Positions 18,158 to 35,003 of a stretch of DNA of 64,000 nucleotides are shown one piece after another; position 1 is the first letter of the stretch, and every line of letters begins with the position of its first letter. Both the position numbers and the translations under genes were made by a program. Source of the stretch: Hymenobacter lucidus (GTDB lineage Bacteria > Bacteroidota > Bacteroidia > Cytophagales > Hymenobacteraceae); the NCBI RefSeq assembly GCF_020447265.1, contig NZ_JAJADR010000007.1, positions 62,001-126,000 on the forward strand, given 5' to 3'. The notes under the pieces were generated by a model that was not told where the DNA came from, ran no database searches, and worked only from the letters and a program-made list of their open reading frames with translations.

Positions 18158-18168
18158 ATGCTTCTCGT

Positions 18169-18585: not shown

Positions 18586-20718
18586 ATGGCATTAATTAAC
18601 ACGATCCGAGAAAAATCGAGCTGGGCTGTTGGCATCGTCGCCATCGGTCTGCTGCTCTTTATCGTCGGGGGAGACCTGATAGGCGGTAAAAACCGCCTGT
18701 TTAACCGTAATGAGAATTCGGTAGGCGAAATAGCCGGCGAGCAAGTAGATTATAACGAATTTCAGGCTGCTCTGGAGCAAGCCAAGCAGAACTATATTCA
18801 GCAGCAGGGCCGCCAGCCCGACGAGCAGGCTATGGGCTACCTGCGCGACCAAGCCTGGAACCAGACCATTTACCGCATTGCCTTTGCCAAGGAGTTCGAA
18901 AAGCTCGGCATTGCCGTTTCCGACGACGAGCTGACTGACATGGTGCAGGGGAAAAACATTCATCCCAGCATCCGTCAGGCCTTCACCGACCAGCAAACCG
19001 GCCAGTTCGACCGCGCCAAAGTGGTGGAATACCTGAAAAACCTCGACAAGCTGCCTCCCCAGTCGCGCGACGCCTGGTACAACTTCGAAGCCAACCTGGG
19101 CCCGGAGCGCATGGGCAACAAGTACAACAACCTGCTCAAGCTCTCGACCTACGTGACCACCGCCGAGGTAAAGCAGTACAACGAGAACCAGAACACCCGC
19201 GCCAGCATCCGCTACTTGTTCGTGCCTTACTTCTCCATTTCGGATTCGGCCGTGAAGGTAACCGACGCGCAGCTGCAGGCTTACCTCGATAAGAACAAAG
19301 GCCGCTACAAAGTGGAAGCTGGCCGCAGCATCGAGTATGTGACCATTCCGGTAACGGCTTCGGTAGAAGACAGCACCACGGTGAAGAAGACGGTAGAAGA
19401 CCTGGCCAACCAGTTCCGCACTGCCCCCAACGACTCCGTATTCGCCAAAATCAACACAGACCCCGAGCACCCCTACAGCTCGGCCTACGTGTCGCCGGCC
19501 GATATGCCCGAGAAGCTGCGTCAGCAGCTACCCCTCACGGTTGGTCAGGTATATGGCCCCTTCGCCGAAAATGGCGTGTATTCCATCTTCAAAGTGACTG
19601 GTCAGAAAGCCGGCGCCCAGGCTTCGGCCCGTGCCAGCCACATCCTCATCAAGCCCGATGCTCCAACGCCGGAAGCCAAAGCTGCCGCTCTGGCCAAAGC
19701 CAAAGACATACTGGCCAAAATCAAAGCTGGGGCTGACTTTGCCGCCATGGCTCGTCAGTTTGGCACCGACGGCACCACCGCTACCGGCGGCGACCTGGGC
19801 TGGTTCACGCAGGGCCGCATGGTGCCCGAATTTGAGAAAGCCGTATTCGCCGCTACCTCGGCCGGCCTGCTGCCCGCCCCGGTAGAAACCTCGTTCGGCT
19901 ACCATATCATCAAGGTAACCGCTCCTAAAAACAGCCAGACCTACCAGATTGCCGCCGTGCAGAAAAGCATTCTGCCTTCCGATGCTACCCGCGACGCTGC
20001 GTATGCCCGCGCCCAGGAGCTGAAAGGCAAAGCCACCGACCTCGCCTCGTTCCGGGCTGCCGTAGCCGCCGACAAGACCCTGCAGAAGCAGGAAGCCAAA
20101 GGCCTCGCCAGCGACGCCCGCGCCGTAAACAACCTGCAGAACGCACGGGACCTAGTGCGCTGGGCCTACGGTGCCGGCCAGGCTGGCAAGAAAACGGCCA
20201 TCGGTGACATCTCCGAAGTATATGAAATCGGTGACCAGTACGTAATTGCCGTCCTCACCGAGGAGCGCGCCAAAGGCGTTGCCGACGTGGCCAGCCTGAA
20301 ACAGGAGCTGTCGGCGGCCGTGCGCAACGAAGAGAAAGCCAAGCAGATCATCGAGAAGCTGAACGGCAAGAAAGGCACGCTGGAGCAGATTGCCGCCGCT
20401 TACGGCCCCACGGCCCAGGTGAAAACCGCCGACAACGTAGTACTCGGCACCGGCGTAATTCAGGGCCTGGGCGGCGAGCCGCTGGCCGTAGGCAAAGCCT
20501 TCGGCGTGAAGCCCGGTCAGCAGTCGGCCCCGTTCCAGGGTGAGCAGGGCGTACTGATTGTAGAGCCCGTGAAAATCGAGAAGCCTACCATCCCAACCGA
20601 CGTGAAAACGGTTCGTCAGCAGCTGACGGCCCAACGCTCGGCCCGTGCCGATGGCGCCATCTACGAAGCGGTGAAAGCCAACGCCAACATCAAAGACGAG
20701 CGCACCAAGTTCTTCTAG
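18586..20718 (+). CDS. ppiD: PpiD-type periplasmic peptidyl-prolyl isomerase foldase
   Basis: Protein of 710 residues: an N-terminal transmembrane anchor (about 12-32), a SurA_N-like chaperone domain with SVGEIAGEQVDYNEFQAALEQ, and one parvulin domain at about 345-442 with ARASHILIKPD, GGDLGWFTQGRMVPEFE and SFGYHIIKVT. The C-terminal 250 residues are helical chaperone-like sequence with a second, degenerate parvulin-like segment. PpiD assists folding of proteins leaving the Sec channel. It is 132 bases after the small membrane gene, so co-transcription with the lptC cluster is plausible. Confidence 0.9.
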   Translation: MALINTIREKSSWAVGIVAIGLLLFIVGGDLIGGKNRLFNRNENSVGEIAGEQVDYNEFQAALEQAKQNYIQQQGRQPDEQAMGYLRDQAWNQTIYRIAFAKEFEKLGIAVSDDELTDMVQGKNIHPSIRQAFTDQQTGQFDRAKVVEYLKNLDKLPPQSRDAWYNFEANLGPERMGNKYNNLLKLSTYVTTAEVKQYNENQNTRASIRYLFVPYFSISDSAVKVTDAQLQAYLDKNKGRYKVEAGRSIEYVTIPVTASVEDSTTVKKTVEDLANQFRTAPNDSVFAKINTDPEHPYSSAYVSPADMPEKLRQQLPLTVGQVYGPFAENGVYSIFKVTGQKAGAQASARASHILIKPDAPTPEAKAAALAKAKDILAKIKAGADFAAMARQFGTDGTTATGGDLGWFTQGRMVPEFEKAVFAATSAGLLPAPVETSFGYHIIKVTAPKNSQTYQIAAVQKSILPSDATRDAAYARAQELKGKATDLASFRAAVAADKTLQKQEAKGLASDARAVNNLQNARDLVRWAYGAGQAGKKTAIGDISEVYEIGDQYVIAVLTEERAKGVADVASLKQELSAAVRNEEKAKQIIEKLNGKKGTLEQIAAAYGPTAQVKTADNVVLGTGVIQGLGGEPLAVGKAFGVKPGQQSAPFQGEQGVLIVEPVKIEKPTIPTDVKTVRQQLTAQRSARADGAIYEAVKANANIKDERTKFF

Positions 20719-20742
20719 GCCGGCCAACAGCCGGAAGCAAGC

Positions 20743-20775
20743 AAAAGGGCTGTATCTTCGGGTACGGCCCTTTTT
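20743..20775 (+). terminator. Hairpin terminator after the PpiD-like gene
   Basis: AAAAGGGC pairs with GCCCTTTT around a short loop containing CTTCGG, followed by a T run (TTTTTGTTTGG). Confidence 0.75.
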
Positions 20776-20931
20776 GTTTGGCCCGTAATGCAGCCCGAAA
20801 GCTGCGGCTGGCTTCCTTCGGGCAGACAGCAACAATGAGCAGGACTACGCGGTTGGTTTTCGGGCCCGAATGAATGAAAGTAAGCCCCGGCCGGTTTACT
20901 GTCTGATTGTTACTTCACTGGCTTCTGCGCT

Positions 20932-22767
20932 ATGCGTTTTTTCTCTTTGCGTCGCTTTGTAAAATTTGCTCCGGCTCTGGTGCTGGGCCTGGGTTTGACG
21001 ATACAGTCGGCGCAGGCCCAGGACGACGGTGGCATTGCCCTGGCCCGGGAATACGCCCGCAAGGGTGAGAATGAGAAGGCCGCCTTCCTGTTTGGCCGGT
21101 TGCGCAGCGAAGAGCAGGCCGCGCCCAACGTGCTGCCCGACTACCTCACGGTGCTCGAAAACCTGAAGCGCTACAAGGACGCCGAAAAGCTGGTGAAAAA
21201 AGCTATTCGGCAGCGCCCCGAAGAGCCGGCCTACGGTGTGGCCTTGGGTAGCCTTTACACCACCGCCGGCGACGCGCCGGCCGCTGCCAAGCAGTATGAG
21301 CGGGTAGTGAGCCAGCTCACGGCTGCGCAGGTAGTACCCGTCGCCACCGAGTTTATGCGCCGCAACCTGCCCGAGTGGGCCGAAAAAGTCTACCTGAAAG
21401 GCCGTGCCCTTACCAAAGACGACACCGAGTACGCGCCCCAGCTGATTCAGCTCTACACCCAGTCGGGCCAAACGGACAAGGTGATGACCGAGACGCTGCG
21501 CCTGGTGCAGGACGATGAGCAGCAGCTGCCCTTCGTGCGCAATATGCTCCAGAACAGCCTGCGCGAAGACAAGGACTTCGATGCCCTGGAAAAGGTGCTG
21601 TTTGCCAACGTGCAGAAGTACCCCGAGCGGGCCGTGTACAGCGAGCTGCTGCTGTGGCTGCAGATGCAGCGCCGCGACTTCACCGGAGCCCTGGTGCAGG
21701 CCAAGGCCCTCGACCGGCGCGGCCGTACCGAAGGTGCCCGGGTAATGGAGCTGGCCGCTATTGCCCAGCGCAACAAAGATTTCGAAAGCGCCATTGCCGG
21801 CTTCGAGTACGTGACGCGCGAATACCGCGGGGGCATGTACTACCGCCTGGCCCGGCAGCGGTTGGTGCAGGCCCGCGAAGAGCAGGTACGCGCTACGTAT
21901 CCGGTCGATTCGGCTAAAATCCGGGGGCTGATAGGGGAGTACCAGAACGTGCTGACGGAACTGGGTAAAACTCCCGAAACGGCCTCGGTGCTGCGCAGTA
22001 TGGCTGCGCTCTATGCCTTCCAGCTCGATGAGAAAGACAAGGCAATGGCCATGCTGCAGGAAGTAATTGACCTGCCCCGCGCCAGCCTCGATGTGGTGGA
22101 TGAAGCCAAAATCAACCTGGCCGATATCTACCTGCTGCGCGGGGAGCCCTGGGAAGCTACGCTGCTGTATTCGCAGGTGGAAAAGTCGCACAAAGAGTCG
22201 CCGGTGGGCTACGAGGCCAAGCTGCGCAACGCCCGCCTGAGCTACTACGCCGGCGACTTTAAGCTGGCCAAAAGCCACCTGGACATTCTCAAGGAAGCCA
22301 CCAGTCGTGAAATTGCCAACGACGCCATGCAGCTCAGCCTGCTCATCACCGACAACACGGCCATGGACACCTCGGGCGTAGCCCTGCGCGACTACTCAGC
22401 CGTGGAGCTGCTCGTGTTCCAGAACAAGCTGGACGCAGCGCTCAAGGGCCTCGATAATCTGCTGCAGAAATACCCCGGCCACGCCCTCACCGATGACGCC
22501 TGGTACCTGAAAGCCCAGCTGCAGCGCCGCATGGGCGACTACCCCGCGGCTTTGACCACGCTCGAAAAGATTACGGCCAACCCCAAATACGACGTGCTCA
22601 GCGACGACGCGCTGTTTCTGACGGCCAGTATTGCCGAGGAAAACCTACAGGACCGCGAGAAAGCCAAAACGCTCTACAACCAGCTGCTGGTGAAATACCC
22701 CGGCAGCATCTACACCGCCGAGGCCCGCAAACGCTTCCGCAAGCTGCGCGGCGACGCGGTGAATTAG
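20932..22767 (+). CDS. Secreted tetratricopeptide-repeat protein
   Basis: Protein of 611 residues with a signal peptide (cleavage after SAQAQ) and TPR units through nearly the whole length, for example NVLPDYLTVLENLKRYKDAEKLVKKAI, AYGVALGSLYTTAGDAPAAAKQYERV and ALFLTASIAEENLQDREKAKTLYNQLLVKYPGS. The last unit resembles outer-membrane lipoprotein assembly TPRs of the BamD type. Function unknown; scaffolding in the envelope is inferred. It ends 73 bases before a small convergent frame and 316 bases before recJ. Confidence 0.8.
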   Translation: MRFFSLRRFVKFAPALVLGLGLTIQSAQAQDDGGIALAREYARKGENEKAAFLFGRLRSEEQAAPNVLPDYLTVLENLKRYKDAEKLVKKAIRQRPEEPAYGVALGSLYTTAGDAPAAAKQYERVVSQLTAAQVVPVATEFMRRNLPEWAEKVYLKGRALTKDDTEYAPQLIQLYTQSGQTDKVMTETLRLVQDDEQQLPFVRNMLQNSLREDKDFDALEKVLFANVQKYPERAVYSELLLWLQMQRRDFTGALVQAKALDRRGRTEGARVMELAAIAQRNKDFESAIAGFEYVTREYRGGMYYRLARQRLVQAREEQVRATYPVDSAKIRGLIGEYQNVLTELGKTPETASVLRSMAALYAFQLDEKDKAMAMLQEVIDLPRASLDVVDEAKINLADIYLLRGEPWEATLLYSQVEKSHKESPVGYEAKLRNARLSYYAGDFKLAKSHLDILKEATSREIANDAMQLSLLITDNTAMDTSGVALRDYSAVELLVFQNKLDAALKGLDNLLQKYPGHALTDDAWYLKAQLQRRMGDYPAALTTLEKITANPKYDVLSDDALFLTASIAEENLQDREKAKTLYNQLLVKYPGSIYTAEARKRFRKLRGDAVN

Positions 22768-22840
22768 AATTAACAGCCGTAACTAAGCCGAGCAGCTGGC
22801 TCTGTTTTGCTTTCGGTAAAGCCGGGCTGGCCGTTGTGGC

Positions 22841-22954
22841 CTAGCGGAAGAAAATAAACATAATTGCCAGGGCCAGCAGAAATATCAGGTACATCAGGCC
22901 ATCGGTCAGGATGTATTGTTTGTACTGCTTGTAAAACGCAATCAGCTTCTTCAT
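22841..22954 (-). CDS. Possible 37-residue single-helix membrane protein
   Basis: Too short to be found by length filters. It has an ATG start (22954) and TAG stop (22841). The N-terminus is basic/aromatic (MKKLIAFYKQYKQYILTDG), followed by one transmembrane helix of about 16 residues ending in FFR. The pattern of a short basic/aromatic head and a single helix is typical of real bacterial small membrane proteins, and the frame sits alone in the gap between the TPR gene and recJ. No promoter was identified, and conservation is untested. Confidence 0.45.
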   Translation of the reverse strand: MKKLIAFYKQYKQYILTDGLMYLIFLLALAIMFIFFR

Positions 22955-23042
22955 GGCGGCGGGTTCGGGCAACGGGAAGGCAAAAATAGGCATTCGGGCC
23001 CGGCCCGGCCGGCAACAATCGGGAGGACCGCCGTTTTCTTCT

Positions 23043-23050
23043 TACTTTTG
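23043..23050 (+). promoter_or_regulatory. -7 element TACTTTTG before recJ
   Basis: Exact TAnnTTTG match located 33 bases before the recJ ATG. A clear -33 TTTG was not seen at the expected distance. Confidence 0.4.
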
Positions 23051-23083
23051 AAGATAACGCCCGTTAGGGCCCGCCGCCGAATT

Positions 23084-24808
23084 ATGGAAAAAAGATGGAT
23101 CCGCAAGCCTGCGCCTGAGCCCACTAAGGTTAGGCATCTGGCCGACGCTTTGCGCGTCAATGAAACCATCATTGCGCTGCTCTGCCAGCGCGGAGTGTGT
23201 TCCTACGACGAAGCCTTCCAGTATTTCCGCCCCAGCCTCGACCAGCTGCCCGACCCGCTGCGCATGCGCGACATGGACCGTGCCGTCGACCGGCTGATCA
23301 CGGCTTTGCACGAAGGCCAGAAAGTACTGGTATTCGGCGACTATGATGTGGATGGCACCACGTCGGTGGCGGTGGTTTTCTCCTACCTGCGGACTCTTTT
23401 CGGCCCTGAGCGGGTCGACTACTACATTCCGGACCGCTACAAGGAAGGCTACGGCATTTCCGAGGCCGGCATCGACTACGCGCTAGAGCAGAATTTCAGC
23501 CTCATCATTGCTCTCGACTGCGGCGTGAAGGCCGTAGACCGCATCGACTACGCCAACGAGCGGGGCGTCGACTTCATCATCTGTGACCACCACTTGCCCG
23601 GCACCGAGCTGCCGAAAGCTGTGGCCGTCCTCGACCCCAAGCGTGCCGACTGTGAATACCCATTCAAGGAGCTTTCCGGCTGCGGCGTCGGCTTTAAGCT
23701 GATGCAGGCCCTGTGCCAGCACCTGGGCCTGGATGAAGCGCCCCTGTATGAACTGCTGGACTTGGTGGCCATTAGTATTGCGGCCGATATCGTGCCTATC
23801 GGGGGCGAAAACCGCATTCTGGCCTACCACGGTCTGCGCCAGCTAAACGACCGGAGCAAGGAGCTGCGGCCGGGCGTGGCGGCCCTGCGCGAGCTGGCCG
23901 GCCTGCGCGAAGGGGAGTTGACTATCAGTAGTCTGGTATTCGGGTTTGCGCCGCGCATCAACGCCGCCGGCCGCATGGGCGACGCCAAACGCTCGGTGGC
24001 CATGCTGCTGGCCGAAACCAAAGAGGAGGCCGTGGAGAAAACCGGGGTGGTGGACAAAACCAACATCGAGCGGCGCGGCTTCGATACCAGCATCACCAAG
24101 GAGGCGCTGAGCATGATTGAGGACGATGCGTCGCTAATTAATGCTCACTCCACGGTACTCTATAAGGAAGACTGGCATAAAGGTGTTATCGGCATCGTGG
24201 CCTCGCGCTGCCTCGACAAGTACTACCGCCCTACCATCATCCTGACCCAGAGCAACGGCAAAGCTACCGGCTCGGCCCGCTCGGTGGTGGGTTTCGATGT
24301 GCATCAGGCCATTAGTGAGTGCGCCGATTTGCTCGACCAATACGGCGGGCACATGTACGCGGCCGGCCTCACGCTACCGGTCGAAAACGTGGCCAAGTTC
24401 CGGGAGCGGTTTGAGCAGGTAGTAGCCGACCGGATTCTGCCCGAGCAGCTGATTCCGCCGGTGGAAATTGACGCCGTGCTACGCCTCGATGAAGTAACCG
24501 ACAGCTTTTACAAGCTGCTGCACCAGATGGAGCCTTTCGGCCCGGGCAACCCTAACCCGGTGTTCGAGTCGGAATTCGTGTACGCTACGCCTGATTCGGC
24601 GCGCGTGGTGGGCAACTCTCACCTGAAGCTGACCCTCACCCAGGACGGGCGCCATACCGTGGATGCCATTGGCTTCGGCCTAGCTGAGTACCACGAGCGA
24701 ATCACCGACGGCCACCCGTTCAACGTGTGTTACACGGTGGAAATCAACGAATACCGGGGACACCGCACCCTGCAGCTGCGGGTGAAGGATATCCGCTGGA
24801 CGGAATAG
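23084..24808 (+). CDS. recJ: Single-stranded-DNA-specific exonuclease RecJ
   Basis: 5'-to-3' exonuclease of the DHH superfamily that acts in RecFOR recombination and mismatch repair. The ATG at 23084 gives 574 residues; an earlier frame from 22916 adds non-homologous sequence. Motif I DYDVDGTTS is at 86-94, the DHH motif ICDHHLPG near 166-173, and the DHHA1 region with GSARSVVGFDVHQAI and YGGHMYAAGLT follows. Normal family length. The gene for a co-acting repair protein, recF, is 13 kb away. Confidence 0.95.
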   Translation: MEKRWIRKPAPEPTKVRHLADALRVNETIIALLCQRGVCSYDEAFQYFRPSLDQLPDPLRMRDMDRAVDRLITALHEGQKVLVFGDYDVDGTTSVAVVFSYLRTLFGPERVDYYIPDRYKEGYGISEAGIDYALEQNFSLIIALDCGVKAVDRIDYANERGVDFIICDHHLPGTELPKAVAVLDPKRADCEYPFKELSGCGVGFKLMQALCQHLGLDEAPLYELLDLVAISIAADIVPIGGENRILAYHGLRQLNDRSKELRPGVAALRELAGLREGELTISSLVFGFAPRINAAGRMGDAKRSVAMLLAETKEEAVEKTGVVDKTNIERRGFDTSITKEALSMIEDDASLINAHSTVLYKEDWHKGVIGIVASRCLDKYYRPTIILTQSNGKATGSARSVVGFDVHQAISECADLLDQYGGHMYAAGLTLPVENVAKFRERFEQVVADRILPEQLIPPVEIDAVLRLDEVTDSFYKLLHQMEPFGPGNPNPVFESEFVYATPDSARVVGNSHLKLTLTQDGRHTVDAIGFGLAEYHERITDGHPFNVCYTVEINEYRGHRTLQLRVKDIRWTE

Positions 24809-24844
24809 TCTGCCCGGCGAATATCCTTTTTCACACCAGTATTA

Positions 24845-25462
24845 TTACCGCGCCTGGGGAGCCACGAAGTATTCCGTGGTTTTGCCGGCTTGCTTCAGTA
24901 CGCCTTTGCGCGTGGTTTTCACTAGATAGTCGCCGCGCAGAAACTTGACCTCCTTCAGCGGATTGCGGCCGGATACGTTGGACGTAACAGTGGCATAATT
25001 GCCCGATTCCAGCTTTATTACCGTGGCCTGCGCTTTAGGGTCTACCTCATAGTAGTCGAAAGCCTGCAAGCGCACCAGCTGGCCATCCTGGTAGTATTCG
25101 GCCAGCGCTACGTTGCCCCCAACCGTGTAGTAAAACACTTTCTCGACAACTGTGCCCACGCTCTTGTGCTTAACAATGTGCTTTTTTAGCAGCAAGCGGG
25201 GCAGCTTATCGGGTTGAAAGCTGGCCGTAGTGGGGCTGGGCGTGGTAACGTAGCCTTTAGTGCAGAGCCGGGTGCCGCCCGTAGCCACAAACGAGGTCTT
25301 GAAAAAGCTGATCTGCGCGTCCTTCTGGCTGCGAATGACGGCCGCGCGCTGAAACAGGGAGTCGCGCTCCGTGGCGAAGCGGGCCGGGTCGGTAGACTGC
25401 GCCTGTAGGGAAAGAGACGTAAGCAGCGTAAGACTGGTGCCAACAATAAACCGACTGAGCAT
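24845..25462 (-). CDS. Secreted protein of unknown function
   Basis: Protein of 205 residues from ATG 25462, with a signal peptide (MLSRFIVGTSLTLLTSLSLQAQ). The mature part is soluble with alternating basic strands, no Cys pairs of note and no recognised motif. A TTG nine bases earlier (25471) is in frame but less likely. Convergent with recJ. Nothing in the sequence names a role. Confidence 0.65.
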   Translation of the reverse strand: MLSRFIVGTSLTLLTSLSLQAQSTDPARFATERDSLFQRAAVIRSQKDAQISFFKTSFVATGGTRLCTKGYVTTPSPTTASFQPDKLPRLLLKKHIVKHKSVGTVVEKVFYYTVGGNVALAEYYQDGQLVRLQAFDYYEVDPKAQATVIKLESGNYATVTSNVSGRNPLKEVKFLRGDYLVKTTRKGVLKQAGKTTEYFVAPQAR

Positions 25463-25849
25463 TGGTCGCAATGAGAATAGATGAAAATGAGTCGGTGCGA
25501 AAATAATGGCTTGCCGACCGTCTGGCCAAATTGCCTTATTGTTACTCCGGCCGTAGCTGTCATCACGCCCACAACAACCGCCTGTAGAGGTAAATGCACT
25601 CAGGCCAGCGACGGAGCAGAGACCAGGCCCGTGCTAGTGGTCTGAGCTGTGACCAGACGATGCGCACGAATAGGGCCGGCCCGACGATTGTGGCAGAGCA
25701 GATAGTGGCCGGTCCAAAAGCGGTATATTGCCATAGTGTTTATAGGTAATTTCATTCGCCTAGAGGTGTTGCCAGCCCTTTTATAATAGCCGCAGCGTTT
25801 TTACCAGCATCCAACGGACTCTGCCAGTCCACTTCATTATCTGCTTCTA
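25463..25849. other. 387-base intergenic region upstream of the acyltransferase-P450 gene
   Basis: Contains no open frame with a credible start and no hairpin with a T-run. An AT-rich patch (TTTATAGGTAATTTC, about 25738-25752) and TTTTATAATAG (about 25788) could hold a promoter for the fusion gene, but no clear TTTG/TAnnTTTG pair was found. Confidence 0.35.
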
Positions 25850-28141
25850 ATGCTTCGGTTTCAAGCTTTACCCCGCGCCCTGGTGGCCCGCTATGCGCCG
25901 CCCATTGTTAAACAGCTAATGCGGCGCACCTGGCATCGCCTCCGGCAGCTGGGGCGCAAAAGTCCGGCCCAGCGCCTGCTGTTTACCTTCAACGGCCGTC
26001 ACCCGTACGCGCCGGGCACGGGCCGCGACCTGTATGCCCACGAGCCGGCGTTTCGCACCACGGTTCAGGAATGTGAGCGGGTCCTGACCCAGGTGTTGGG
26101 CGGCCCTTCCATCATCAGCAACTTCACCGGGCCGCCCGCCGCCCCCGATTTCTTTGCCGATGAAGCCCGGCTGCTGCTCACCAACGTGGTGATGCAGCTG
26201 GCCCTGGTGGAGCTGTGGCTGGCCCACGGGGTGCAGCCGGAGGGGGTGCTGGGCGTTAGCGTGGGAGAAGCGGCGGCCGTGTACGCCGCCGGGGGCCTGA
26301 GCCTGCCGGATGCTCTGCGCGTGGGCCTGAACTGCTGCGTCGTCAGTCAGGTTTCCCGCCCTGACTACACGCTGCTGGTGGTCAATGCCGGTTTTGCCAC
26401 GGTAGGCCGGTTGACGGACGCGTGTCCCGTCGAGCTGCTGGTCGTGCTGCTGGTGGATGCCGGGTGTTGCCTGGCGTTGTGCCCCAAAGTCGATGTGGCT
26501 GCAGCCCAGCAGTATCTGGCCGCGCATGGTATCAGCAGCACCGCGCCGCCAACCAGTCTGATCTGGCCGTATCATTCGCCGCATCTGGCTCAGCACCTGG
26601 AGGCGTTACGCGCGCCCCTGCAAGACGTTTGCCCGCAGCCGTTGGCGCTTCCCTGCTACCTGGGCACGGCCGGCCGCCAGCTGCCGGTGGGTACGGTGCT
26701 GGGGCCGGAATACTGGCTGTCGCTGGTTCAATACCCGCTAGACATTCACGGAACCTTGGGAGCCGCCCTGGCCGACGGCTATCAACTCTTCCTACCCATT
26801 GGGGTCGATTCCTTTCCTTTTCTGCGCGACCCGGCCCAGCGTGCTAGCTTGGCCGGCGTGCAGGTATTGCCCGGGCTCCAGCCGCCGCAGCCGGAGCTAA
26901 CGACGATTGGGGCCAACCGGAAGCTGCTGGCCGACTACGGGCTGGTGAAAAAACACCCGCTCCCGCGGCCCGCGTTTGGAGCCGCCACTTTCATCACGCA
27001 GTTCTCGCTGGGGGCGCTGGAAACCAGCGCCGACCCGTACTCCGCCTACGCGCATCTGCTCCGTCAGGGCGGTCTACATTTCCTGCCGGCTAACAACAGC
27101 TGGCTGGTGCTGGATACCGCGCTGATTAACGCCGTGCTCCGGGAGCCGCTGGTCTTTTCGAGCAGTCCCAACGCCGGTTTTGAAAGTGCGCTGATCGGGG
27201 CCGACCCGCCCGTGCATACTGCCAACCGGCAGCTGTTGCAGCCCTTCTTTGCCCCCAAGCAATTGGCCGGGCTGCGTGAATTCACGGAGGCAATGGTGGC
27301 TGAGCTGAGCACAACGCTGCAAGCGCAGCCATCTTTCGACTTCGTCAATGACTTTACCATTCCGCTGACCCAGGCCGTGAGTGCCCAGCTACTAGGACTG
27401 ACCGCCGACGAGCGCCAAAGCCTGCAACGCTGCCTACCCGGCCATGCCTACCAGCTCGACTACCTGGAGGCGCTGACCAGCTTCTTCGACGAATACCTCC
27501 AGCGGCAGCAACCCACTGCCGCGCCGACGATCCTGAATCATCTGCTCACCCTCACCCAAGCGGGACAACTAGCCCAGGATACGGCCATCAGCCTGATAAA
27601 GACCATGTGGCTGGCCAGTATTGTCACTAGCAGCATGCTGATGAGCAATGCGGCGTACTACCTGCTCACACACCCCACCGTAGCTGATCAGCTGCGGGAC
27701 AACCCTTCGCTCGTCGAGCCATTTATTGAGGAAATCCTGCGCCTGGAGCCGTCCCTCAGTGCCATTGCGCGCGTAACAACCCAGGCGGTAACGCTCGGTG
27801 ACCAAGAGCTGCCAGCCGGGGCATTCGTGGTGTGCAGCATTGTAGCCGCCAACCGGGACCCAGCGTATTACTCTAAACCCGATGAAGTAGACTTGAGCCG
27901 ACGGCCGGCACGACACCTGTCGTTTGGCGGCGGGATTCATGCCTGCTTGGGCGCGCACTTGGCCCGCCTAGAGGCACGCACGGTGCTACACTGGCTGATA
28001 GCCCAAGGGCCCGGCTTCCGCCAGGTAAACCCCTCCGCCCCAGCCGAGTATTTCCCCTCCCACACTTTTCGCGCGCTGAATACACTGCCCGTCTCTTGGC
28101 CCTCCACGCCTGATGACTCTTTGCCGCTTAGCGGTACTTAG
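25850..28141 (+). CDS. Fusion of a PKS-type acyltransferase domain and a cytochrome P450
   Basis: 763 residues. About 42-345 resemble the malonyl-CoA:ACP acyltransferase fold: LFTFNGRHPYAPGTGRDLY replaces the usual FPGQGSQ start, GVSVGE (Ser137) replaces GHSxGE, and Pro-Tyr-His-Ser (His242) supplies the second catalytic residue. About 382-750 form a P450: DPPVHTANR (C helix), EILR (E628, R631) and FGGGIHACLG with heme-ligand Cys699. In the I helix the usual acidic-Thr pair is VT (V592, T593), so normal O2 activation may be altered. No ferredoxin, ketosynthase or ACP gene is adjacent. The start ATG is clear. Function is unknown; acting on a tethered acyl group is inference. Confidence 0.88.
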   Translation: MLRFQALPRALVARYAPPIVKQLMRRTWHRLRQLGRKSPAQRLLFTFNGRHPYAPGTGRDLYAHEPAFRTTVQECERVLTQVLGGPSIISNFTGPPAAPDFFADEARLLLTNVVMQLALVELWLAHGVQPEGVLGVSVGEAAAVYAAGGLSLPDALRVGLNCCVVSQVSRPDYTLLVVNAGFATVGRLTDACPVELLVVLLVDAGCCLALCPKVDVAAAQQYLAAHGISSTAPPTSLIWPYHSPHLAQHLEALRAPLQDVCPQPLALPCYLGTAGRQLPVGTVLGPEYWLSLVQYPLDIHGTLGAALADGYQLFLPIGVDSFPFLRDPAQRASLAGVQVLPGLQPPQPELTTIGANRKLLADYGLVKKHPLPRPAFGAATFITQFSLGALETSADPYSAYAHLLRQGGLHFLPANNSWLVLDTALINAVLREPLVFSSSPNAGFESALIGADPPVHTANRQLLQPFFAPKQLAGLREFTEAMVAELSTTLQAQPSFDFVNDFTIPLTQAVSAQLLGLTADERQSLQRCLPGHAYQLDYLEALTSFFDEYLQRQQPTAAPTILNHLLTLTQAGQLAQDTAISLIKTMWLASIVTSSMLMSNAAYYLLTHPTVADQLRDNPSLVEPFIEEILRLEPSLSAIARVTTQAVTLGDQELPAGAFVVCSIVAANRDPAYYSKPDEVDLSRRPARHLSFGGGIHACLGAHLARLEARTVLHWLIAQGPGFRQVNPSAPAEYFPSHTFRALNTLPVSWPSTPDDSLPLSGT

Positions 28142-28214
28142 GAAGGGGAAATGCTGCGGTCTGGTTTCGTAAAGCGTGAGTATCGATGCTGCTGAAAGGT
28201 AGAAATCCAGGTAA

Positions 28215-28595
28215 TTATCTACGATGATGGGCCGGCCGGCCCACCCACCACGCCCACAGAATAAGCCCGGCTTGCAGCGGCAGCCGGGCCCAGGCCAGCC
28301 AAGGTGCCACGCCCAGGCCCGCGCCGCTGGTCTGCGCCATATACACATTGGCCGGAAACACGGCCACCAGCAGCGCAATCAGGCCCCAGGCCGCCCAGCA
28401 GTGGGTGCGGCGGGGTAGTAGCAGCGCACCCAGCACCACTTCGGCCACGCCGCTGAGCAGCACCAGTTCCCGGTGCCACGGCAAATAGGGCGGCATAATG
28501 CGCAGGTAGGGCTCGGGCTTGAGGAAATGCAGCACGCCGGCGCCCACGAAAAGCAAGGCCAGGGTGTAGCGGCTAATAGTTTTGAGGCGGGACAT
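28215..28595 (-). CDS. DoxX-like membrane protein
   Basis: Protein of 126 residues from ATG 28595, with four transmembrane segments and the DoxX-type pattern ALLFVGAGVLHFLKPEPYLRIMPPYLP at the N-terminus. DoxX family proteins are linked to quinone oxidation or sulfur metabolism in some organisms, with no firm role here. It is convergent with the acyltransferase-P450 gene, 73 bases apart. The open frame upstream to 28655 lacks a plausible start. Confidence 0.75.
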   Translation of the reverse strand: MSRLKTISRYTLALLFVGAGVLHFLKPEPYLRIMPPYLPWHRELVLLSGVAEVVLGALLLPRRTHCWAAWGLIALLVAVFPANVYMAQTSGAGLGVAPWLAWARLPLQAGLILWAWWVGRPAHHRR

Positions 28596-28655
28596 TTGGG
28601 CGTAGCGGGGTGAGTGGGAGGGACGGAAGCGGCAACTTACGGCCTCGCCCGGCAA

Positions 28656-28687
28656 TTTGGGCTGCCCCTACGTACTGCGTACCTTCG
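28656..28687 (+). promoter_or_regulatory. Promoter of the Bacteroidota type before the M61 peptidase
   Basis: TTTG at 28656-28659, a 20-base spacer and TACCTTCG at 28680-28687 (7 of 8 positions of TAnnTTTG). Transcription would begin about 40 bases before the ATG at 28731. Confidence 0.6.
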
Positions 28688-28730
28688 CCGGGCGTTGTAG
28701 CCCTCGGTTGCTATCCTATTTTTTCGACTC

Positions 28731-30575
28731 ATGAAACTGTATTATCTCGCCCTTGGGCTGGGGCTGGCTGCGGCGGTTCCGGCAGTAGCCCAGCAGTCCG
28801 CCGGCTACCAGATCAGCCTCGACCTGCAACAGCCAGCTAACGACCGGGTACGGGTCGTTATCAATACGCCGCCCGTAAAGGAGGCGCAGGCTACCTATGT
28901 GATGCCCTCGGTAGTGCCCGGCTCTTACTCCAAGAAAGACTACGGCCGCTTCGTACAGGGCTTTACGGCCTTCGACCGGAAGGGTCAGAAGCTGAAAGTA
29001 AAGCAGCAGGGAGCCAACCTGTTCGTCATCGAAAAAGCGGGCAGTCTGGCGCGTATCGAATACCTGGTAGACGATACCTGGGACGTGAAGCAGGACGACG
29101 GCTTCATCTTCCAGCCCGGCGGCACCAACTTCGAGGCCGGCCAGAACTTCGTGCTCAACCATTACGGCCTCTACGGCTACCTCGAAGGCTATAAGATGCA
29201 GCCCTACCAGGTGACAGTGGCTAAGCCCGCCGACCTCTACGGTGCCACTTCCCTGCCGGTGAAGCGCGCCACGCCCACCCAGGACGTGTTTACGGCTGAT
29301 AGCTACGTGGAGCTGGCCGACGCGCCTATTCTCTACAGCCGCCCCGATACGGCCAGCTTTAGCACCGGCGGCGCCCGGATTTCGGTGTCAGTAGTGTCGG
29401 AAACCGGGGCGGTGAAGGCCGTGCAGGTGCGCGAGATTATGCGCCCTATGGCCGAGGCCCTCACCAAGTTCTTCGGCCAGATGCCGGTGCCGACCTACCA
29501 TTTTCTGATGTACTTCCCGAGCTTCTCCTCGCCGCTGGCCAGCAAAAACGGCGGCTACGGGGCTATGGAGCACTCGTATTCGTCGGTATATTTTCTGCCC
29601 GAAGTGCCCCAGGAAGAACGCCTGCGCAGCATGGTGCAGGAAGTGGCCTCGCACGAGTTTCTGCACATGCTAGCCCCGCTCAACATTCACAGCCGCGAAA
29701 TCGGCGAGTTCGACTTCCGCAACCCTAAGATGTCGCAGCACCTGTGGCTCTACGAGGGCGTTACGGAGTACATTGCCCAGCTCGTGCAGGTGCGCGGCGG
29801 CTTGAGCACGCCCACCGAGTTTCGGGAGCGGATGAAGGAGAAAATCGACAAGGCCGACAAGTACCCCACGGTTTCCTTCACCGAAATGAGCCGCAAAATT
29901 CTGGAGGCGCCCTACAAGGACATGTACGACAACGTGTACGACAAGGGCGCCCTCATCGGCCTGCTGCTCGATATCCGGATTCAGGAGCTGAGCCAGGGCC
30001 GCCAGAGCCTGCGCGACGTGCTGCTGGCCCTGCGCGCCAAGTACGGTCCCACCCGCTCCTTCGAGGATGCCGCGCTGATTCCGGAAGTGGTGGCCCTCAC
30101 CAACCCCGCCATTCAGCAGTTTTTCGACCAGTACGTCATCGGCAACCAGCCTTTGCCCTACGCTGAGTACTTCGATAAAATCGGGTGGCGCTATCAGGCC
30201 ACGGGCCGCCGCACCATCAAGGCGTTTGGCCAGCTCGGCTTCAGCTACGACACCGAGAAAAAGCAGTTTCTGGTGGCTGGCACCAAGGCCGATGAAAATG
30301 CCTTCGGCCTGCAGGAAGGCGACGTAATCGTGGCCGTGAATGGCACGGCCGTGGACATGGGCAACGCGGAAAAGCTGCTGCGCCCCCTCGTGGAGCCTAC
30401 CACCAACGACGCCGTAAAAGTCCGGTTTCAGTCGGGCGCGGCCAAAACCACTCAGGAGCGCCAGGCCACGCCCCGCGAGTTTGAGGTGGAAGTGAAGAAT
30501 GCCCTGGACGAAGTCCCCGCGCCCACACCGGCCCAGCTCCAGCTGCGCGGCCAGGTGCTGAAGCCGCTCGGCTAA
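28731..30575 (+). CDS. Secreted M61-type aminopeptidase with PDZ domain
   Basis: 614-residue gluzincin-like protein with signal peptide (cleavage near PAVAQQ). The N-terminal beta-sandwich domain (about 25-180) is followed by the catalytic domain with zinc motif HEFLH (308-312) and the downstream Glu in WLYEGVTEY, and a C-terminal PDZ-like domain (about 500-580, FGLQEGDVIVAVNGTAVDMGNAEKL). M61 enzymes of Bacteroidota cleave glycine or hydrophobic N-terminal residues. Single gene with its own promoter; lptB follows 92 bases later. Confidence 0.9.
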   Translation: MKLYYLALGLGLAAAVPAVAQQSAGYQISLDLQQPANDRVRVVINTPPVKEAQATYVMPSVVPGSYSKKDYGRFVQGFTAFDRKGQKLKVKQQGANLFVIEKAGSLARIEYLVDDTWDVKQDDGFIFQPGGTNFEAGQNFVLNHYGLYGYLEGYKMQPYQVTVAKPADLYGATSLPVKRATPTQDVFTADSYVELADAPILYSRPDTASFSTGGARISVSVVSETGAVKAVQVREIMRPMAEALTKFFGQMPVPTYHFLMYFPSFSSPLASKNGGYGAMEHSYSSVYFLPEVPQEERLRSMVQEVASHEFLHMLAPLNIHSREIGEFDFRNPKMSQHLWLYEGVTEYIAQLVQVRGGLSTPTEFRERMKEKIDKADKYPTVSFTEMSRKILEAPYKDMYDNVYDKGALIGLLLDIRIQELSQGRQSLRDVLLALRAKYGPTRSFEDAALIPEVVALTNPAIQQFFDQYVIGNQPLPYAEYFDKIGWRYQATGRRTIKAFGQLGFSYDTEKKQFLVAGTKADENAFGLQEGDVIVAVNGTAVDMGNAEKLLRPLVEPTTNDAVKVRFQSGAAKTTQERQATPREFEVEVKNALDEVPAPTPAQLQLRGQVLKPLG

Positions 30576-30654
30576 CCGGCAGAAGTTCGAATACTACCTA
30601 CAAGGCCACTTTTTCGGCCCGTTTCTCCCGCCCCGGCTTCTGATTCCTAACGCC

Positions 30655-30662
30655 TACCTTTG
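30655..30662 (+). promoter_or_regulatory. -7 element TACCTTTG immediately before lptB
   Basis: Exact TAnnTTTG match ending 5 bases before the lptB ATG at 30668. By the usual geometry, transcription would begin at or within one or two bases of the ATG, giving a leaderless message. No convincing TTTG was found at -33. Confidence 0.45.
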
Positions 30663-30667
30663 CCTCA

Positions 30668-31399
30668 ATGATTCTGCGCGCTGAACACCTAGTAAAAACC
30701 TACAAGTCCCGAACCGTCGTCAACGATATGTCGCTGTCGGTGGAGCAGGGCGAAATCGTGGGACTGCTCGGGCCCAACGGAGCTGGCAAAACCACCTGCT
30801 TCTACATGACCGTAGGCATGGTGAAGCCCAACAGCGGCCGGGTGTTTCTCGACGATGAGGACATCACCAAAATGCCCATTTACCAGCGGGCCTTGCGCGG
30901 CGTGGGCTACCTAGCCCAGGAGGCCTCCGTGTTCCGCGACCTGACGGTAGAGGAGAATATTCTGGCCGTGCTGGAAATGACCAAGCTCTCCAAAAAAGCC
31001 CAGCGCGACAAGATGGAAGAGCTTCTCAATGAGTTCAGCCTCACCCACGTGCGTAAGAACATGGGCCGGGTGCTGAGCGGCGGGGAGCGGCGGCGCACCG
31101 AAATTGCCCGTGCCCTGGCCGTCGACCCCAAGTTTGTGCTGCTCGACGAGCCCTTCGCCGGCGTGGACCCCATTGCTGTGGAAGAAATTCAGGGCATCGT
31201 GGCTAAGCTCAAGCACAAGAACATCGGCATCCTCATCACCGACCACAACGTGAACGAAACGCTCAGCATCGTCGACCGGGCCTATCTGCTCTTCGAGGGC
31301 AAGCTGCTCAAGGCCGGTACCGCCGAGGAACTGGCCGCCGACGAAACCGTGCGCCGCGTGTACCTGGGCAAGCACTTCGAGTACAAGCGCAAAATCTAA
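30668..31399 (+). CDS. lptB: LPS export ABC transporter ATPase LptB
   Basis: ATPase that powers the LptFGC lipopolysaccharide extractor. 243 residues, normal length. Walker [10 protein letters not shown] at 35-43, ABC signature [15 protein letters not shown] (about 136-150), Walker [14 protein letters not shown], and the H-loop [10 protein letters not shown]. The RRTEIARAL variant and [16 protein letters not shown] are typical of LptB. Its partner lptC is at 17.6 kb; lptF and lptG are not in the window. Confidence 0.95.
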
Positions 31400-31547
31400 A
31401 CCGGGAGCAGGGGCGAGGCACCGATTTCAGGCGTGGCAGCCCGGTCGGGCCAATTTGCGTATAGGGCCCACCCACCAAAGCATGCTTCGGTGAAAAGGCG
31501 TTTATTTCGCCTGACAACCTGCTTTCCCACCCGGCAATCGACCCTGA

Positions 31548-33065
31548 ATGATTGATTCTATCCTGACCTGGACCGTGCAGCGGCGGCTAGCCAGCATCGA
31601 CCATTTTCGCCAGCATCCGCACGAGGTGCAGGCACGGGTGCTACAGGAACTGCTACTGAAGGCCCGGGCCACGGAATGGGGGCAGCGCTACGGCTTCGCG
31701 GATGCCCCTAATGCGGCCGAGTTTGCCCGGCGGGTGCCCATCAGCAGCTACGAAGCGCTGTATCCGGCCATCGAGCGGGTGCTGCGCGGGGAGCCCGACG
31801 TGCTCTGGCCCGGCCGGGTGCAGTGGTTTGCCAAGTCGAGCGGTACTACCAACGCCCGCAGCAAATTTATTCCCGTTACTCGCGAGGCCCTGCACGAGTG
31901 CCACTACCGCGCCGGCCGCGACATGACGGCCCTAGCCACGGCTTTATACCCCGAAAACCGCGTGCTGGCGGGCAAAACGCTGTCCTTGGGTGGTACGCAC
32001 GCTCCCAACCCGTTTCGGCCCGACGAGGCCGATTCCCGCGTCGGTGATGTGTCGGCCGTCATCATGCAGAATCTGCCGTCGTGGGCCGAATACCTGCGTA
32101 CCCCGCCCCTGGAGCTGGCCTTGCTGGATGAGTGGGAGGAGAAGATTGAGCGCATTGCCCGCCACGTACTCACGGTAGACGTGTCGGTGCTGGCCGGTGT
32201 GCCCACCTGGATGATTGTGCTGCTGCGCCGCGTGACGGAGCTGGCCGGGGCTAGCAATATCACGGAGGTATGGCCCAACCTGAGTTTGTTTCTGCACGGG
32301 GCGGTGGCGTTTGGGCCGTATCGGGAGCTGTTTCGCCAGCTGATTCCCTCGGAGCAGATGAGCTACCTCGAAATCTACAATGCCTCCGAGGGCTACCTGG
32401 CCCTGCAGGATCAGCGGGGCTCCGAAGACCTGCTGCTGCTGCTCGACCACGGCATCTACTACGAGTTTATGCCCCTCGACCAGTTTGATGCCGAACACCC
32501 GCAAGCCGTGCCGCTGGATCAAGTAGAGTTGGGCAAAACCTACGCCCTGGTGCTCAGTACCAATGCGGGGCTGTGGCGCTACAGCATCGGCGATACGGTG
32601 CGCTTCACCAGCCTGGCGCCCTACCGTATCCGCATTACGGGCCGTACCAAGCACTTTCTGAATGCCTTTGGCGAGGAAGTCGTCATCGAAAATGCCGATG
32701 CCGCCATTGCCGCCGCCTGCCGCGCCACCGGTACCACCGTGCGCGACTATACTGCCGCCCCCATCTACTTTGACGCCTCAGCCGCTTCCCGGGGCGGCCA
32801 CCAGTGGCTTATCGAGTTCAGCCAGCCGCCCCAGCAGCCAGAGCGGTTCACCGCTGTGCTCGACCAGAAGTTGCGGGAGCTGAATTCGGATTACGACGCC
32901 AAGCGGCACCGCAACCTGGCCCTGGAGCCGCCAATGCTCACCGTGGCCAGCACCGGCACATTTACTCGTTGGCTGGCTAGCAAAGGCAAACTCGGCGGCC
33001 AGCACAAAGTGCCACGCTTGAGCAATTCCCGCGAAATCATCGAAGAGGTACTACGCCAGGTATAG
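31548..33065 (+). CDS. GH3-type acyl-adenylating amidosynthetase
   Basis: 505-residue member of the GH3 family, the ATP-dependent enzymes that in plants join hormones to amino acids. The ATP/phosphate loop FAKSSGTTNARSKFIPVT (about 98-115) and the C-terminal LWRYSIGDTVRFTSLAPYRIRITGRTKHFLNAFGEEV region are conserved. Bacterial members are common in Bacteroidota but their substrates are unknown. The gene is alone, followed by a 264-base AT-rich gap. Confidence 0.88.
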   Translation: MIDSILTWTVQRRLASIDHFRQHPHEVQARVLQELLLKARATEWGQRYGFADAPNAAEFARRVPISSYEALYPAIERVLRGEPDVLWPGRVQWFAKSSGTTNARSKFIPVTREALHECHYRAGRDMTALATALYPENRVLAGKTLSLGGTHAPNPFRPDEADSRVGDVSAVIMQNLPSWAEYLRTPPLELALLDEWEEKIERIARHVLTVDVSVLAGVPTWMIVLLRRVTELAGASNITEVWPNLSLFLHGAVAFGPYRELFRQLIPSEQMSYLEIYNASEGYLALQDQRGSEDLLLLLDHGIYYEFMPLDQFDAEHPQAVPLDQVELGKTYALVLSTNAGLWRYSIGDTVRFTSLAPYRIRITGRTKHFLNAFGEEVVIENADAAIAAACRATGTTVRDYTAAPIYFDASAASRGGHQWLIEFSQPPQQPERFTAVLDQKLRELNSDYDAKRHRNLALEPPMLTVASTGTFTRWLASKGKLGGQHKVPRLSNSREIIEEVLRQV

Positions 33066-33329
33066 CCTCATAAAGCTCTCTTTTCAGACTGGCCCTATCA
33101 GTTAACCTAGGGCTTGGGAAAGCACAATTGCTCGGTTAAAATGCCAAATAACCTTGATTCATCACGGCATCAGAAACGGTGCTGAAATCAGGCTACTGAA
33201 GTTATTCTCAAATATTTATAAAGAATCGGGTAAACTTTTAACCTATGGCAATATTTTTTGCGTTGCCCGGACTTGTTCTAATATAATAACTTATATATTG
33301 TCGGATTATTAACGTTCACGCTCACACCC

Positions 33330-33563
33330 GTGCCCGCTATTCCGACCTCTTCTTCTCGCCCCTACGTTTCCCGCCGCAAGCGTAGCCATTCCTCCGAATC
33401 ATCGGGGCTAAGTGCTAAAGCCACGGCTGGCCTGCTCAGCCTGCTGATCTTCGCCCTGCTGGCTAGTCTGGCCGTTATTGCCGCTCACCTGCCCGATGAA
33501 GAGCCGGGCCGCGCACCCAACACGATAAGCGCCGCCGTCACTGCTCCGGCTACGAACCAGTAA
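33330..33563 (+). CDS. Small single-pass membrane protein, function unknown
   Basis: 77-residue open frame from a GTG at 33330: a Ser/Arg-rich N-terminus (SSRPYVSRRKRSHSSESS), one transmembrane helix (about 34-53) and a Pro/Ala/Thr-rich tail. The 264 bases before it are AT-rich with no other gene. No family recognised; it could be a real small protein or a chance frame. It ends 27 bases before the convergent AIM24-like gene. Confidence 0.45.
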   Translation: MPAIPTSSSRPYVSRRKRSHSSESSGLSAKATAGLLSLLIFALLASLAVIAAHLPDEEPGRAPNTISAAVTAPATNQ

Positions 33564-33590
33564 CGGCGGGACATTCTATCGACTCTACGT

Positions 33591-34373
33591 TTACTCGTCC
33601 AGCACGCCGCCTACTAGGCGGCCTAGTACGCTGCCACTTTCTTTCGAGGCATTGCCGCCATTGGGTGCCAGCGCCTGAATCAGCTTTTTCACCGGCATCG
33701 ACTGCAGCCACACCCGGCCAGTACCTTGCAGGGTGGCCAGCAACAGCCCTTCGCCGCCAAAAATCATGGATTTCAGGCCGCCGGCGCGGGCAATGCTGAA
33801 GTTGATGCTGGGCTCGAAAGCTACCACGCAGCCCGTATCCACGCGCAGCAGCTCGTTATTGAGTTGCTTCTCGATGATGGTACCGCCCGCGTGAATAAAA
33901 GCTTTACCGTCGCCGGTTAGCTTTTCCAGAATGAAGCCCTCCCCGCCAAAAAAGCCGGCCCCAAACTTCTGGTTGAAGTGAATCCCGATTTTGGTACCCC
34001 GGGCCGCGGCCAGAAATCCATCCTTCTGTACGATTAGGCCCTGGGGCATGGTGCCCAGGTCTACCGGGATAATGGTGCCGGGGTAGGGGGCCGAAAAGGC
34101 TACGCGGCTTTTGCCGTAGCCGCCCCGGTGCGTAAAGTGGGTCATAAACAGCGATTCGCCGGTAATCAGGCGGGTACCGGCCGAGAACAGCTTGCCCAAA
34201 ATGCCCTGGTCGGGCTCCGAGCCGTCGCCCATCTTGGTTTCGAAGGCTATGCCTTCTTCCATGTACACCATGGCGCCGGCTTCAGCAATGACGGTTTCAT
34301 TGGGGTCAAGCTCCACTTCCAGCACCTGGATGTCGGAGCCAAGAATGCGGTAATCTACGTCGTGGGACTGCAT
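33591..34373 (-). CDS. AIM24/TIGR00266 family protein
   Basis: 260-residue all-beta protein of the TIGR00266 (AIM24-like) group: YRILGSDIQVLEVELDPNETVIAEAGAMVYMEEGI at the N-terminus, then repeated glycine-rich beta-turn segments such as TRLITGESLFMTHFTHRG and FGAGFFGGEGFILEKLTGDGKAF. The eukaryotic AIM24 works in mitochondrial inner-membrane organisation; the bacterial role is unknown. No signal peptide, so probably cytoplasmic. Confidence 0.85.
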   Translation of the reverse strand: MQSHDVDYRILGSDIQVLEVELDPNETVIAEAGAMVYMEEGIAFETKMGDGSEPDQGILGKLFSAGTRLITGESLFMTHFTHRGGYGKSRVAFSAPYPGTIIPVDLGTMPQGLIVQKDGFLAAARGTKIGIHFNQKFGAGFFGGEGFILEKLTGDGKAFIHAGGTIIEKQLNNELLRVDTGCVVAFEPSINFSIARAGGLKSMIFGGEGLLLATLQGTGRVWLQSMPVKKLIQALAPNGGNASKESGSVLGRLVGGVLDE

Positions 34374-34449
34374 ATGCGAGAGGTTAAGGCGAATAACGAG
34401 CCCAAGTATAGCAAACTGCCAATAATCAGGGGAAGTAGCCCCAAAATAA

Positions 34450-34480
34450 AGCGGCGCTCTTCCATTGGAAAAGCGCCGCT
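34450..34480 (-). terminator. Hairpin terminator downstream of the 34.5-34.9 kb gene
   Basis: A 9-bp perfect stem (AGCGGCGCT / AGCGCCGCT) with a 13-base loop; on the minus strand it is followed by TTTATTTT. It lies just past the end of the small gene at 34511-34885. Confidence 0.75.
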
Positions 34481-34510
34481 AAATATCCTTTGCAGAGAAG
34501 ACCAAACAGC

Positions 34511-34885: not shown

Positions 34886-35003
34886 GATGTCGTCCGTAGG
34901 TAGGTGTGTGCTACGCCAGCGCCTTGCCCAAACACGAAGGCCGCTCCGTACCGATAGTACGAAGCGGCCCCGGTGCCGGATGCCCGAATTTTAAAACGGC
35001 TGG

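Follow-up and report, generated by a model that had tools for sequence, protein, structure and literature searches.

A stretch of 64,000 nucleotides from Hymenobacter lucidus (contig NZ_JAJADR010000007.1, positions 62,001 to 126,000), which we call the window, carries a gene that joins an acyltransferase (AT) domain to a cytochrome P450. This gene, AT-P450, is a single frame of 763 residues, free of internal stops. Pfam places Acyl_transf_1 (PF00698) at residues 47–317 (E = 1.4e-15, 58 bits against a cut-off of 32.7) and p450 (PF00067) at residues 538–717 (E = 2.6e-23, 83 bits against a cut-off of 22.8). Matches to NCBIfam are all below cut-off; those of the C-terminal half are P450 families, and those of the N-terminal half are families of the polyketide synthase (PKS) and FabD type. 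The top match by score is TIGR04515, with 132.4 bits against a cut-off of 343. An initial annotation made from the DNA letters had described one intact frame with both domains and had named Ser137 in GVSVGE, His242, the ExxR motif EILR, Cys699 in FGGGIHACLG, and Val592 at the I-helix acid position; the frame, both domains, and all of these residues are as it described, His242 lying in WPYHSPH and ExxR at E628–R631.

The fusion recurs in other genomes. Relatives of full length, confirmed by tblastn and 64% identical, are found in Hymenobacter sp. CA1UV-4 (G520) and M29 (G024), and a profile search of 120 Hymenobacter genomes gave, among the matches listed, full-length fusions in seven: that of the window (G000), G024, G520, G477, G511, G478, and G471. 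A sample of 395 genomes of the phylum added one fusion from another class, in G165, with an open frame of 754 residues and 31% identity. Looking for other two-domain fusions, a check proposed in the initial annotation, thus gives eight genomes in all, including the window's. Because the same two-domain frame is present in eight distinct genomes, an assembly error or frameshift joining two genes is ruled out. No fusion beyond that of G165 was found in 92 genomes of its family, and searches of 128, 341, and 395 (class) genomes gave no further fusion genome within strict E-value limits. For the phylum sample and the 341- and 395-genome searches, the genomes were a selection from larger groups, with no more than two or three candidates scored in each, so with these limits and the strict E-values fusions can have been missed. 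Two Nostoc plasmid matches that span both halves are separate neighboring genes, a P450 followed by a PKS, and a Mycobacterium plasmid match is a lone P450 gene; none of the three is a fusion.

Compared with its two nearest relatives, the window gene has a ratio of nonsynonymous to synonymous substitution rates (dN/dS) of 0.10 and 0.28, and against G477 and G511 the ratio is 0.33 and 0.42, values that are rough, since dS in these comparisons is 0.96–2.4. The ratios indicate that the gene is under constraint, and they say only that. We conclude that the AT-P450 fusion is real and old.

The AT half was aligned in the eight fusions together with one stand-alone relative (P0010 of G471), one FabD-like protein of the window genome, and eight PKS AT domains. 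Ser137 and His242 align with the catalytic Ser and His of the FabD-like protein and the eight PKS ATs, and both are invariant in all eight fusions, down to about 30% identity, as are G135, G139, and E140. In place of the GQGSQ-type loop (PGQGSQ), FxFxGR is found in the eight fusions and in the stand-alone AT, and the His of GHSxG is lost in every fusion. The substitutions first noted in the window protein, no GHSxGE His and no FPGQGSQ, therefore hold for all eight. The Arg of FabD and PKS ATs binds the malonyl carboxylate. Its column holds C, Y, Y, C, G, G, L, and S in the fusions and V in the stand-alone AT, compared with R in 9/9 comparison proteins; the G511 fusion has an Arg two positions before this column. 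By this mark, the AT half is probably not a malonyl transferase, and retention of the Ser–His pair with loss of the Arg fits a nonmalonyl acyltransferase. Thus, the AT half has in common with FabD and type I PKS AT domains a fold family matched above cut-off and the GxSxGE Ser and the His in register, whereas it differs in lacking the carboxylate-binding Arg and GQGSQ, in being fused to a P450, and in having no acyl carrier protein (ACP) or ketosynthase among its scanned neighbors. The stand-alone relative has 353 residues (L090:9265-10326), and its His sits in PTH, not PYH; G471 carries both this gene and an AT-P450 fusion.

In the P450 half, all eight fusions retain the heme Cys, ExxR, and the Thr of the I-helix. 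The Val at the I-helix acid position in the window protein is representative, as no fusion has an acid there; the residue before the Thr is V, T, P, S, or A. By contrast, the acid is kept in 27 of 28 comparison P450s, that is, in 25/26 stand-alone proteins and in both of the P450–cyclase fusions described below. The structures in the Protein Data Bank (PDB) matched by the P450 half include CYP143, PikC, and CYP107 entries. With these bacterial class I P450s it shares the heme Cys, ExxR, and the I-helix Thr, and it differs from them in the absent I-helix acid and the N-terminal AT. Both halves look catalytic but specialized, since their catalytic residues are kept while the Arg and GQGSQ of the AT and the I-helix acid of the P450 are lost. 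The features of the gene are collected in Table 1.

Table 1. Features of the AT-P450 gene, in window coordinates.
Feature	Position	Strand	Evidence or remark
Complete AT-P450 fusion gene, 763 aa	25850..28141	+	ORF, Pfam, full-length relatives
Acyltransferase half, about residues 41-345	25970..26884	+	PF00698, alignment with FabD and PKS ATs
Catalytic Ser137 (GxSxGE)	26258..26260	+	Invariant in 8/8 fusions (alignment)
Cys162, column of the FabD/PKS carboxylate-binding Arg	26333..26335	+	Arg there in 0/8 fusions
Catalytic His242 (PYH)	26573..26575	+	Invariant in 8/8 fusions (alignment)
Linker between the halves, about residues 346-385	26885..27004	+	Poorly conserved
Cytochrome P450 half, about residues 386-750	27005..28099	+	PF00067, PDB matches
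I-helix ASIVT; Val592 at the acid position, Thr593 kept	27614..27628	+	
ExxR motif, E628-R631	27731..27742	+	
Heme-ligand Cys699 in FGGGIHACLG	27944..27946	+	

What surrounds the fusion in the other genomes? The seven other fusions lie in glycan gene sets with a UbiA gene and a gene for a small class II terpene cyclase-like protein, here called the toroid. In six of the seven Hymenobacter loci, all but the window's, AT-P450 sits between the genes for the permease Wzm and the ATPase Wzt, with UbiA and toroid nearby; these six have the ATP-binding cassette (ABC) transporter-dependent arrangement, with Wzm and Wzt next to glycosyltransferases (GT4, GT2). In G024, G477, and G478, the genes run GT4, GT2, UbiA (on the other strand), Wzm, AT-P450, Wzt, toroid, and Acyl_transf_3; G024 has a further Acyl_transf_3 gene. 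The G520 locus has GT4, UbiA, Wzm, AT-P450, Wzt, toroid, and an Acyl_transf_3 gene, and that of G471 the whole set except a clear Acyl_transf_3 partner. The G511 locus, at a contig end, comprises toroid, Wzt, AT-P450, Wzm, UbiA, and part of GT2. The genes of G165 run toroid, a gene with a weak likeness to sulfotransferases, AT-P450, GT4, GT2, and UbiA; Wzm and Wzt do not stand next to AT-P450 there, and an upstream ABC-ATPase-like open reading frame (ORF) weakly matches Wzt (E = 3e-5). The Wzt_C domain of Wzt scores above cut-off in G478 and below it in G024. No ACP or ketosynthase is present among the scanned neighbors of the fusion loci, and a motif scan of 11 stretches gave no ACP-like ORF in any of them. 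Within the stretches fetched around stand-alone relatives of the P450 half (L055-L058, L092, L136-L138, L140-L142) and of the AT half (L139), there was, apart from the P450 or AT itself, no match to the partners of the fusion sets.

These partners co-occur with the fusion among the 120 Hymenobacter genomes, by Fisher tests that take related genomes as independent and so ignore kinship. The toroid (E up to 1e-3) is found in 20 genomes, and in 7/7 fusion genomes versus 13/113 others (p = 1.3e-6), two of these 13 having weak or partial matches. UbiA (E up to 1e-20) is found in 22 genomes and Wzm (E up to 1e-30) in 14, each including 6/7 fusion genomes (p = 1.3e-4 and 5.4e-6, respectively). The exception for both is the window genome, which has its toroid and GT4 on another contig. 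Twelve toroid loci outside the fusion sets were fetched: three have GT4, GT2, UbiA, Wzm, Wzt, and toroid, eight have GT4, UbiA, and toroid, and that of the window genome has GT4 and toroid. At L107, L110, and L117 (G033, G523, and G500), the same glycan set is present with Wzt directly after Wzm (gap 43–138 bp) and no AT-P450 between them. AT-P450 is therefore an optional module of the set. Pieces of toroid genes are found at G500:C1:1846339-1847462, beside a second Wzm copy, at G505:C1:2976171-2976431, and at G473:C9:59195-59389; these short pieces may be the remains of lost gene sets.

The toroid has about 350 residues and a weak Pfam match to squalene-hopene cyclase, just above cut-off in G165 and below it in G478. 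A profile built from 15 toroid sequences matched, in the PDB, bacterial drimenol synthase (E = 8e-10) and squalene-hopene cyclase (E = 1.3e-6). In its DxDDT motif, D113 and D115 are invariant and D116 and T117 nearly so in the 15 rows; the G500 toroid has a degenerate motif, DTDS. Judged by sequence, the toroid thus has both marks of a class II terpene cyclase, homology to the beta domain and an acid motif of the DxDD type. For the UbiA profile, chlorophyll synthase was the sole PDB match (two sequences, E = 1.4e-7), and both UbiA Asp motifs are invariant (N77, D78, D81, D85; D210, D214). Single-domain class II cyclases act on UbiA products in bacterial meroterpenoid pathways, such as that of merosterolic acid. 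Because chlorophyll synthase is the only PDB match, a UbiA role as a phosphoribosyltransferase of the decaprenyl-phosphate type (cf. PMC11127046, in excerpt) is disfavored. For drimenol synthases of the haloacid dehalogenase (HAD) type, the DxDTT motif has been proposed to start cyclization by protonation (PMC9128629, in excerpt). The neighboring toroid is homologous to the beta domain of these enzymes and has a DxDD-type motif; it differs in being a single domain without the HAD half, and AT-P450 itself is not a cyclase.

A second kind of fusion links the P450 to this context. Next after the window's own match, the class search ranked highest the P450 halves of proteins in G1164 (L170:9586-11736) and G995 (L171:9237-11390). 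These proteins, of 716–717 residues, consist of a P450 and a C-terminal toroid domain that carries DLDDT or DVDDT and matches, with blastp E-values down to 8e-15, the toroids encoded at the AT-P450 loci. In both cases, the UbiA gene is next, and Wzm and Wzt homologues and an asparagine-synthase-type amidotransferase are in the same locus; a TylF-type methyltransferase and a PhyH dioxygenase were seen in addition at the G1164 locus, some of the genes having been tested in one of the two loci only. Their I-helix is a normal GNETT. In a midpoint-rooted tree of 36 P450s, the eight AT-P450s form one clade (100/96), which groups with the two P450–cyclase fusions (99/98). The tree and the neighbors together suggest a single P450 lineage with two branches, one fused to an AT and one to a cyclase, both in the company of the same kind of genes. 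Thus, the P450–cyclase fusions share with AT-P450 the nearest P450 lineage and the neighbors UbiA, Wzm, and Wzt, whereas the P450 is joined to a class II terpene cyclase-like domain at the C-terminus in the former and to an AT at the N-terminus in the latter.

The window copy is the sole orphan among the eight fusions, so the glycan and terpene context is invisible from the window. Here, AT-P450 stands alone between recJ and a small ORF, which is followed by an M61 peptidase gene, and no Wzm/Wzt pair lies beside glycosyltransferases in this locus. In G223, G470, G471, and G500, recJ and the M61 gene are about 0.4–0.7 kb apart without AT-P450, with the small ORF between them in G223 and G471. 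Either AT-P450 was inserted at this site or it was lost in the relatives, and insertion is simpler. A 208-residue ORF between recJ and AT-P450 (24845-25471, reverse strand) has no Pfam match and gave no tblastn match at the recJ–M61 site of the four relatives, and it may have been acquired along with AT-P450. The absence of an adjacent ACP, ketosynthase, ferredoxin, or reductase gene, noted in the initial annotation, holds for the 11 neighboring genes scanned (Pfam and/or NCBIfam), the smaller ORFs between them having been only partly scanned, and a motif scan of ORFs of 60–160 residues in window positions 18000-36000 gave no ACP-like ORF. The lone match to an iron–sulfur pattern in that scan (31990-32178) is inside a GH3 gene and was taken as chance. 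This gene (31548-33065, forward strand) adjoins lptB and encodes a GH3-family protein that scores 424 bits with the model for the lyso-ornithine lipid synthetase OlsH, below the cut-off of 620.

Contig C16 of the window genome carries a GT4 and toroid pair (L106:8007-10224) like those of the AT-P450 sets, without the UbiA found beside it in eight other small sets. Given the orphan position, this pair elsewhere, and no match to UbiA or Wzm in the genome at the limits used (E of 1e-20 and 1e-30, respectively), the window copy may serve a reduced pathway.

What is the function of AT-P450? With confidence somewhat short of even, we suggest that it is a tailoring enzyme with two activities, working in a pathway for a surface glycan or glycolipid that bears a prenyl-derived group. 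From the fusion, its spread, its residues, its neighbors, and the sister fusions, we infer every catalytic step and the product as follows. UbiA would prenylate an acceptor, and the toroid, a small class II cyclase, would fold the prenyl chain by acid-started cyclization. The P450 half would oxidize the cyclized isoprenoid, and the AT half, via its Ser–His pair, would move a noncarboxylated acyl group onto the new hydroxyl or a neighboring sugar. GT4 and GT2 would build the glycan, and Wzm/Wzt would export it. We consider a cyclized isoprenoid a likelier substrate for the P450 than an acyl chain on an ACP, because the motif scan gave no carrier protein in the 11 stretches and the P450 lineage travels with a cyclase-like domain (directly fused in two genomes), UbiA, and Wzm/Wzt. 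Since exporters of the Wzt type often recognize a chemical modification that marks the end of the chain (PMC9445017, in excerpt), a cap is one possible role of the isoprenoid group; a lipid anchor is another. More broadly, and with less assurance than for the enzyme itself, some surface glycans of Bacteroidota could carry a cyclized, P450-oxidized, and acylated isoprenoid, as a cap that Wzt recognizes or as a lipid anchor of a new kind, AT-P450 and the P450–cyclase proteins being two parallel fusion solutions for the tailoring.

Several observations weigh against the proposed tailoring role. Without the I-helix acid in any fusion, ordinary monooxygenation is not assured; some active P450s do lack one member of the I-helix acid–alcohol pair. 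No ferredoxin or reductase is present among the neighbors scanned at the fusion loci, and the normal acceptor for FabD-type ATs is a carrier thiol rather than an alcohol. In the PDB match, the toroid profile aligns best over positions 190–348, behind the DxDD motif, so the motif is read from its position and pattern. The parts are also separable, which speaks against a tight pathway: UbiA is present in 14/14 genomes with Wzm, five of which (G006, G473, G481, G492, and G514) are without an intact toroid, none of the 12 toroid loci outside the fusion sets has AT-P450, and the window genome itself gave no UbiA or Wzm match at the limits used. In the P450 tree, 10 of the 36 rows, including both cyclase fusions and five AT-P450s, were flagged for unusual letter make-up. 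Finally, a structure prediction of AT-P450 from three sequences was too poor for use, with a predicted local distance difference test score (pLDDT) of 37 and a predicted template modeling score (pTM) of 0.31.

Alternatively, the AT half takes an acyl group from coenzyme A or an ACP and holds or delivers it, the P450 hydroxylates it in the manner of P450s whose substrates are carrier-bound acyl chains, and the oxidized acyl group decorates a glycan. The initial annotation had offered such an idea, that the AT loads or recognizes an acyl group which the P450 then oxidizes. It is possible to that extent, as the Ser–His pair is kept and loss of the malonyl-type Arg fits a simple acyl substrate. 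Furthermore, the PDB matches of the P450 half include the biotin-synthesis P450 3ejb, an acyl-ACP P450, and the stand-alone relative of the AT half in G471 adjoins genes for a fatty-acid desaturase and a phosphoribosyl pyrophosphate (PRPP) synthetase, the former being in keeping with an acyl substrate. The context points elsewhere, however, with no ACP-like ORF in the 11 stretches and a P450 lineage tied to a terpene cyclase-like domain, and we regard acyl-chain oxidation as unlikely.

A further suggestion of the initial annotation was that the AT half is a noncatalytic docking domain; it might dock or hold the substrate while the P450 alone reacts. The loss of GQGSQ, the GHSxG His, and the carboxylate Arg throughout the fusions would agree with this, as would dN/dS, which in three of the four comparisons with the window gene (G024, G477, and G511, not CA1UV-4) is higher for the AT half than for the P450 half. 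However, the invariance of the catalytic Ser and His, along with G135, G139, and E140, at such low identity disfavors a noncatalytic AT, and we give it little credence.

About as improbable is that the window copy is an orphan that was gained horizontally, lacks a working pathway, and is heading to decay. It stands alone at a site that has no such gene in four relatives, and the genome gave no match to UbiA or Wzm at the limits used, but its frame is unbroken, it retains the key residues, its dN/dS is 0.10 and 0.28 in the comparisons with the two nearest relatives (rough, with dS near or over 1), and GT4 and the toroid are kept elsewhere in the genome. Last and least probable, the P450 half might be a nonredox glycosyltransferase helper like the P450-derived activators of the DesVIII/EryCII kind, in line with TIGR04515 as the best NCBIfam match by score and with glycosyltransferase genes at the seven other loci (only pieces at the contig end in G511), but that score is far under its cut-off, and the heme Cys and ExxR are kept in 8/8 fusions, whereas the activators lack the heme Cys.

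In line with the initial annotation, AT-P450 does not appear to belong to a described enzyme class: the portion of the open-access PubMed Central literature covered holds no description of an AT-P450 fusion, of a P450–terpene cyclase fusion, or of a set of terpene cyclase, UbiA, glycosyltransferase, and transporter genes. To our knowledge, no natural P450 fusion joins a P450 to an AT of the FabD/PKS type. CYP221 is a natural fusion of an acyl-CoA dehydrogenase and a P450; it and P450 BM3 resemble AT-P450 in that a P450 is covalently joined to another enzyme. In P450 BM3, the natural fusion is of the P450 with its reductase (PMC7261786, in excerpt). AT-P450 is thus a new joining of familiar domains, in what looks like an undescribed gene set. 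It represents a natural P450 family without the I-helix acid together with an acyltransferase family that has dropped the malonyl-binding Arg. Furthermore, it points to a recurring gene set that places genes of terpene type (UbiA, the class II cyclase-like toroid, and the P450) within loci for glycan export. The product, if real, would be a surface glycan modified with a terpenoid, and the set provides a short, testable list of genes for it.

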